Origin: Acidobacteriota bacterium
GTDB lineage: Bacteria > Actinomycetota > Acidimicrobiia > ATN3
Reading direction: 5' to 3'
Length of the DNA: 37,380 nt
Assembly: GCA_003577105.1 (NCBI GenBank)
Contig: QEUQ01000020.1
Location: 1 to 37,380, forward strand
In this document: positions 332 to 1,048 of the stretch, in pieces
Layout of the letters: each line of letters starts with the position of its first letter
Numbering within the stretch: the stretch's first letter is position 1
Notes under the pieces: generated by a model
What the model saw: only the letters and a program-made list of their open reading frames with translations
Databases searched by the model: none
What the model was told of the DNA's origin: nothing
Program-made: the position numbers and the translations under genes

Positions 332-403
332 CTGTTCCGAACAGGTGAGCTGTTCCGAACAAGCGAGGTCTTCTGAACGAGTGAGGCCCTCTGAATGCTG
401 ACC
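332..403 (+). repeat. Tandem 18-bp repeat containing a 13-bp palindrome
   Basis: Four consecutive units with an 18-bp period lie at 332-349, 350-367, 368-385 and 386-403, decaying from left to right. Unit 1 carries the perfect palindrome CTGTTC-C-GAACAG (332-344); unit 2 has it with one mismatch (350-362); unit 3 keeps only TTC-T-GAAC; unit 4 is barely recognisable and contains the ATG of the next ORF at 395. It fills the whole spacer between the binding-protein stop and that start codon. It could be an operator array, a recently amplified spacer, or a marker of rearrangement. Confidence 0.7.
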
Positions 404-1048
404 TATGTCGGCAGGCGGATCCTGGCCACGATCCCCGTCATGGCGGTCGTGGCCGTCATCGTGGGAATCGCCGGGATCATCGTTGGAGTCCTTTACTTCC
501 GCTCGAGCACCAAGAGTGGCATCGAATCGATTGATGCAGCGCTGGCAGCTAAGGCTCAGCTCGCGTTGGATCAAGCCGTGAGGGACCAGCTGATGTACCT
601 CGCTCAGCACGACAAGTTCACTGATGATCCCGGAGCGCTCTCGCGGCAAGGGGGCAGTGCCAAGTACGTACGGGGAACCGCAACTACAGACCGCGACTCG
701 GTTGCAGTCCAACTATGCGACGACGTCAACGGAGTGATCATGCAGACCCAGGTCAAGAAGGATGTTTACTTCGCGGCGTTTGTGAGTGTGTTCGACTCCG
801 TCCCCTACTGGGCGCGTGGTCAGCAGTCGTGCCCGCTCTCGCTCGATGACAGCGGAAGCCCTGGAGATCCCTGGAGCTATTCAAGCGAAGTCCTGACAGG
901 CAAGACTCCTACCGGCGAGCCAAGGACAGGCTCACCCCCGAGTCGGTCACCGTCGCCCGATGCCGATGAGGATTCCGGGTCACCTGCTCCCACCTCGACC
1001 CGCCGGTATCCCACCCCAACTGGCTATGACGAGTCGCCCTTTCCGTAG
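395..1048 (+). CDS. Chimeric ORF: ABC-permease N-terminus joined to a membrane-anchored extracytoplasmic protein
   Basis: The protein has 217 residues. Residues 1-20 (MLTYVGRRILATIPVM...) match the start expected of a DppB/OppB permease placed after a binding protein, but the permease body (GDP motif, further membrane segments, EAA loop) never appears. From about residue 20 the sequence is a single hydrophobic anchor (about 13-35) followed by a polar domain related to the product of the gene at 2087: both have FTDDP, a first Cys (LC), a second Cys followed by Pro (SCP here, ECP there), a Trp soon after, and a Ser/Thr/Pro-rich tail. The permease-derived start still supplies Arg residues and a hydrophobic stretch, so it could act as a signal anchor. 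The join is near 446-466. It may be a genuine deletion fusion or an assembly artefact. Function unknown; probably faces outside. Confidence 0.6.
   Translation: MLTYVGRRILATIPVMAVVAVIVGIAGIIVGVLYFRSSTKSGIESIDAALAAKAQLALDQAVRDQLMYLAQHDKFTDDPGALSRQGGSAKYVRGTATTDRDSVAVQLCDDVNGVIMQTQVKKDVYFAAFVSVFDSVPYWARGQQSCPLSLDDSGSPGDPWSYSSEVLTGKTPTGEPRTGSPPSRSPSPDADEDSGSPAPTSTRRYPTPTGYDESPFP

Follow-up and report, generated by a model that had tools for sequence, protein, structure and literature searches.

A probable assembly chimera at a contig end that mimics an in-frame ABC permease fusion

Genes at the start of the contig

The window analyzed here (37,380 nucleotides) is the entire contig C99 of assembly G000 (G000:C99:1-37380), base 1 being the contig start. 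The assembly comprises 2.87 Mb in 104 contigs, with an estimated completeness of 95% and an estimated contamination of 0.42%; its fragmentation and the absence of close relatives suggest that it was assembled from a metagenome. Its nearest relative, G001, belongs to the same order and is the only other genome of that order in the comparison set.

On the forward strand, the window opens with a frame lacking a start codon (1-330), which is cut by the contig start and encodes the C-terminal 109 residues of an ABC substrate-binding protein of the family 5 type (..GVLKGPMPLFWNLKKTAK). The following spacer (331-394) is part of the foreign sequence and shows a unit of 16-18 bases repeated about four times in degenerate form (TGAACTGTTCCGAACAGG, TGAGCTGTTCCGAACAAG and others). 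An open frame of 217 amino acids then extends from 395 to 1048 on the same strand. It begins with MLTYVGRRILATIPVMAVVAVIV, then changes in character and continues with GIAGIIVGVLYFRSSTKSGIESIDAAL. Its first 23 residues (bases 395-463) correspond to a DppB-type permease start, and the first 22-23 codons (395-461) appear to be foreign. The remainder (462-1048) most probably represents a native host gene minus its 5′ part and encodes what is left of a transmembrane segment, followed by an extracytoplasmic domain and a Ser/Pro-rich tail. A native alpha/beta hydrolase (1061-1918, PF12697) is encoded downstream on the reverse strand. No Pfam match was obtained for the frames 1-330 and 395-1048 or for the protein encoded at 2087. 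An earlier note on this DNA had described two halves in one frame, a permease-like start followed by an unrelated anchored protein, and both halves are real.

Origin of the binding-protein tail and the permease start

The best match of the binding-protein tail was found in Diaphorobacter sp. HDW4B (46% identity), followed by Thioclava, Pseudoroseomonas and others at about 40%; identity to the proteins of Siccirubricoccus and Roseicella is 36 and 34%, respectively. Relatives at E < 1e-20 are present in 10 of 385 genomes of the class to which Siccirubricoccus belongs (36-43%). At the protein level, 122 plasmid records match, mostly of Sinorhizobium, Rhizobium, Roseomonas and similar genera, the Diaphorobacter protein being the best of them, and a DNA search of 1-470 against plasmids yielded no match. 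No donor with near-identical DNA was found for the foreign part, 46% being the top protein identity. The search of 296 genomes of the host class at E < 1e-8 recovered no relative, as G000 alone matches itself; all relatives of the tail are proteobacterial. The full-length Siccirubricoccus relative belongs to PF00496, and its model match stops at residue 450 of 533. The 109-residue tail therefore lies mostly outside the model, which covers little of that region.

The permease similarity that the earlier note had perceived in the first 22 residues is present. Along their entire length, residues 1-23 match genuine permease starts in 49 of the 385 genomes (59-78% identity among the best matches). 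All 18 usable alphaproteobacterial loci carry on with an ordinary permease sequence (..PGDPA.., or PADPA in one case); 12 of them have, just before the permease start, a binding-protein gene whose product ends in FWN or FWG. This arrangement, a binding-protein gene and then a permease starting M..(Y/F)..RR.LATIPVM.VVA, is the one expected of the source operon and is found in the same 12 loci and in Diaphorobacter (L076); in both Diaphorobacter and Siccirubricoccus, a complete permease gene directly follows the binding-protein gene. The permease of Siccirubricoccus phaeus (L017) combines the N-terminal family PF19300 with PF00528. It resembles the frame studied here in residues 1-23 and in its position after the binding-protein gene. 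However, the similarity ends at residue 22-23, and neither a transmembrane core nor a PGDPA region follows in the window. Weaker matches to the permease start (50-59%) were also obtained in 4 of 59 other genomes of the host class, so that the assignment to a lineage rests mainly on the binding-protein tail. A lost permease was sought elsewhere in G000; the sole DppB-like gene found (on C34) is 36% identical and aligns from query residue 12, and it was rejected as the continuation. The rest of the ABC operon is indeed gone from this contig, as claimed before, but the foreign fragment itself spans only 461 bases.

Position of the join and composition

DNA identity to the Siccirubricoccus permease amounts to 50 of 66 bases up to position 460 and drops to 14 of 60, which is chance level, beyond it. 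Averaged over permeases in 9-base blocks, identity is 0.72-0.79 at 422-457 and 0.18 at 467-475, these means being slightly depressed by two misplaced loci (L041 and L058) that were excluded from the counts given above. Since permease identity collapses there, we place the join of both source sequences at about 460-463, inside the interval of 446-466 proposed earlier. A BLASTP alignment to the homologous protein of G001 starts at residue 25 of the 217-residue frame, i.e., at the join. A 25-base match of 462-486 was noticed on contig C77; it falls within the hydrophobic stretch of another protein and was taken as chance.

The GC3 of 1-327 together with 395-463 is 0.84; none of 809 host stretches of equal length reaches this value (mean 0.684, sd 0.050), and the part after the join has 0.70. 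A break in short-word composition, for which the earlier note had suggested a check, did not appear: in order-3 and order-4 Markov composition, 1-461 ranks at the 73rd and 63rd percentile of the host and is not separated from it, because the segment is short (461 bases) and the two sources are alike in GC (about 60%).

The native membrane-protein gene

When 461-1045 was searched alone, a homolog was found in G001 (31% identity, E 1.9e-16); the BLASTP comparison with this protein gave an E-value of 4e-19 at 28% identity. The homolog (G001:C5:79973-80761, 263 amino acids) consists of 54 hydrophilic residues, one hydrophobic segment (RRRRITAAIAAAMLGLAVLGGIVLAVYLYV) and then the matching domain, and it falls into no Pfam family. 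Its gene is flanked by lipA on one side and, on the other, by an oppositely oriented alpha/beta hydrolase gene (L016:2051-2929) that is syntenic with the one at 1061-1918. The extracytoplasmic domain and the neighboring hydrolase are common to both genomes, whereas the G001 protein starts with a hydrophilic N-terminus of its own and is preceded by lipA instead of an ABC operon. Judged from its sequence, the native protein, of an unnamed family, most likely crosses the membrane once, starting with a proline-rich part in the cytosol and exposing a domain on the extracytoplasmic side.

A distant homolog of the 217-residue frame exists within G000 on contig C72. The claim that residues 23-217 are a paralog of the protein at 2087 is not well supported, as BLASTP aligns a single stretch of 27 residues (E 0.009), with an FTDDP motif common to this protein and the 217-residue frame, and the clear homolog is that of G001. 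The protein at 2087-2917 is loosely alike to two other anchored proteins (L068:1471-2589 on C72 and L067:793-2019 on G001:C1), a type seen mainly in this order. The three share a Pro-rich or zinc-ribbon-like N-terminus, one membrane segment and a Ser/Thr/Pro tail. At 2580-2640, an 18-base unit (ACTTCAAGCCCGACGGCC) is repeated in tandem; in the protein at 2087, it gives rise to a Ser/Pro/Thr/Ala repeat.

A candidate 5′ end on another contig

With a gene order conserved between G001 and G000, the true start of the native gene would be expected after lipA. lipA has one match in G000, at 39201-40334 of the 40548 bases of contig C16, where it is the last complete gene. An ATG five bases past its stop codon opens a frame (MSDQPPPGASPLPPESQVPDPWAAAQQSDFLY...) at G000:C16:40394-40548 (L019:2694-2848), which runs for 51 codons and is still open at the contig end (full translation MSDQPPPGASPLPPESQVPDPWAAAQQSDFLYRPQQPGETPQGAPYQGAQA). 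These 51 residues align with the N-terminus of the G001 protein (SQVPDPWAAAQQSDFLY and TQETDPWKRAQEGPFML, respectively) with a score that 5 of 5000 shuffles attain, and a DPW..AQ...F motif is common to both. In contrast, the N-terminus of the 217-residue frame aligns with that of the G001 protein at chance level (504 of 2000 shuffles). Since the frame beside lipA matches the G001 N-terminus, the right end of C16 belongs before position ~461 of C99, and G000:C16:40394-40548 is likely the true start of the gene at 462-1048. The aligned part of the G001 protein is preceded by 72 residues, against 51 encoded on C16; about 20 residues, or ~60 bases, would thus be unassembled between the two pieces. 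No exact overlap longer than 8 bases was found between the end of C16 and the start of C99, as expected if foreign sequence replaced the real overlap. The two contigs can probably be scaffolded together.

Chimeric contig end versus gene fusion

Based on these results, we consider the left end of C99 to be, with a probability of roughly 95%, an assembly chimera and thus an artefact rather than a gene fusion. The lineage affinities of the two parts differ, 1-330 having proteobacterial relatives only and 462-1048 a homolog in a genome of the same order. An assembler or scaffolder would have joined about 461 bases of a proteobacterial dipeptide/oligopeptide ABC operon, comprising the end of the binding-protein gene and the first 22-23 permease codons, to the interior of the native gene for a single-pass membrane protein. 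At the join, both genes code for a transmembrane helix rich in Val, Ala and Ile, and the frame remains open across the join, which makes the product look like a fusion. A short resemblance between the two helix-coding stretches could have led the assembly from one path into the other. The native gene would begin at the right end of C16, five bases past lipA, with an estimated ~60 bases missing between the pieces. That the join arose during assembly is what we infer from the observed homologies, the GC3, the synteny with G001 and the orphan piece on C16. The earlier note had offered a joining of two genomes in assembly as one of two explanations, and it is strongly supported by the 5′ part beside lipA on C16 together with the foreign homology and the GC3 of the first 461 bases.

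The other explanation was a deletion that created a new surface protein. The host would have gained the ABC operon horizontally and, by genuine recombination, lost most of it, fusing the permease start into a new anchored protein. The open frame and the retained start codon and hydrophobic segment speak for such an event. However, an open frame across two stretches encoding hydrophobic helices is not improbable, the foreign part sits exactly at the contig start, and the binding-protein tail is without relatives in the host class. Moreover, the expected native 5′ part seems to be present in this very assembly, beside lipA where C16 ends. A homolog with the same N-terminus, which would be expected of a genuine fusion, was not found either: no protein matching both halves was detected in 60 relatives, the 296 genomes of the host class or the 385 genomes of the alphaproteobacterial class. 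We therefore regard genuine recombination as very improbable. Just as slight is the chance of a real fusion in a strain variant, where the native anchored protein would have exchanged its cytosolic N-terminus, in frame, for a permease start acquired horizontally. Least probable of all is that a minority strain carries the fusion and the main strain the intact gene next to lipA, with the assembler using one path from each; this would account for the end of C16 as well as the start of C99, but it requires horizontal transfer, deletion and fusion within one strain, and the foreign homology and GC3 more simply fit a different organism.

A chimeric contig end is in line with what is known of metagenome assemblies. 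Misassembly that links fragments from different sources is a known type of error, said to be rarer than mis-binning (PMC8201837), and one benchmark counted 22.15 chimeric contigs per genome with megahit versus 2.63 with SPAdes (PMC11261854). The present case resembles such contigs in having two sources per contig; here, a contig end would carry the foreign part, and the true continuation would lie at the end of another contig. It differs in that the join happens to preserve the reading frame and mimics a gene fusion.

Caution is required in such cases, as an open frame across a join does not prove a fusion, and even a genome whose contamination is estimated at 0.42% can harbor a spurious gene where a contig ends. 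The 217-residue protein should stay out of databases as a fusion, and the true gene of this single-pass membrane protein can probably be placed across C16 and C99.
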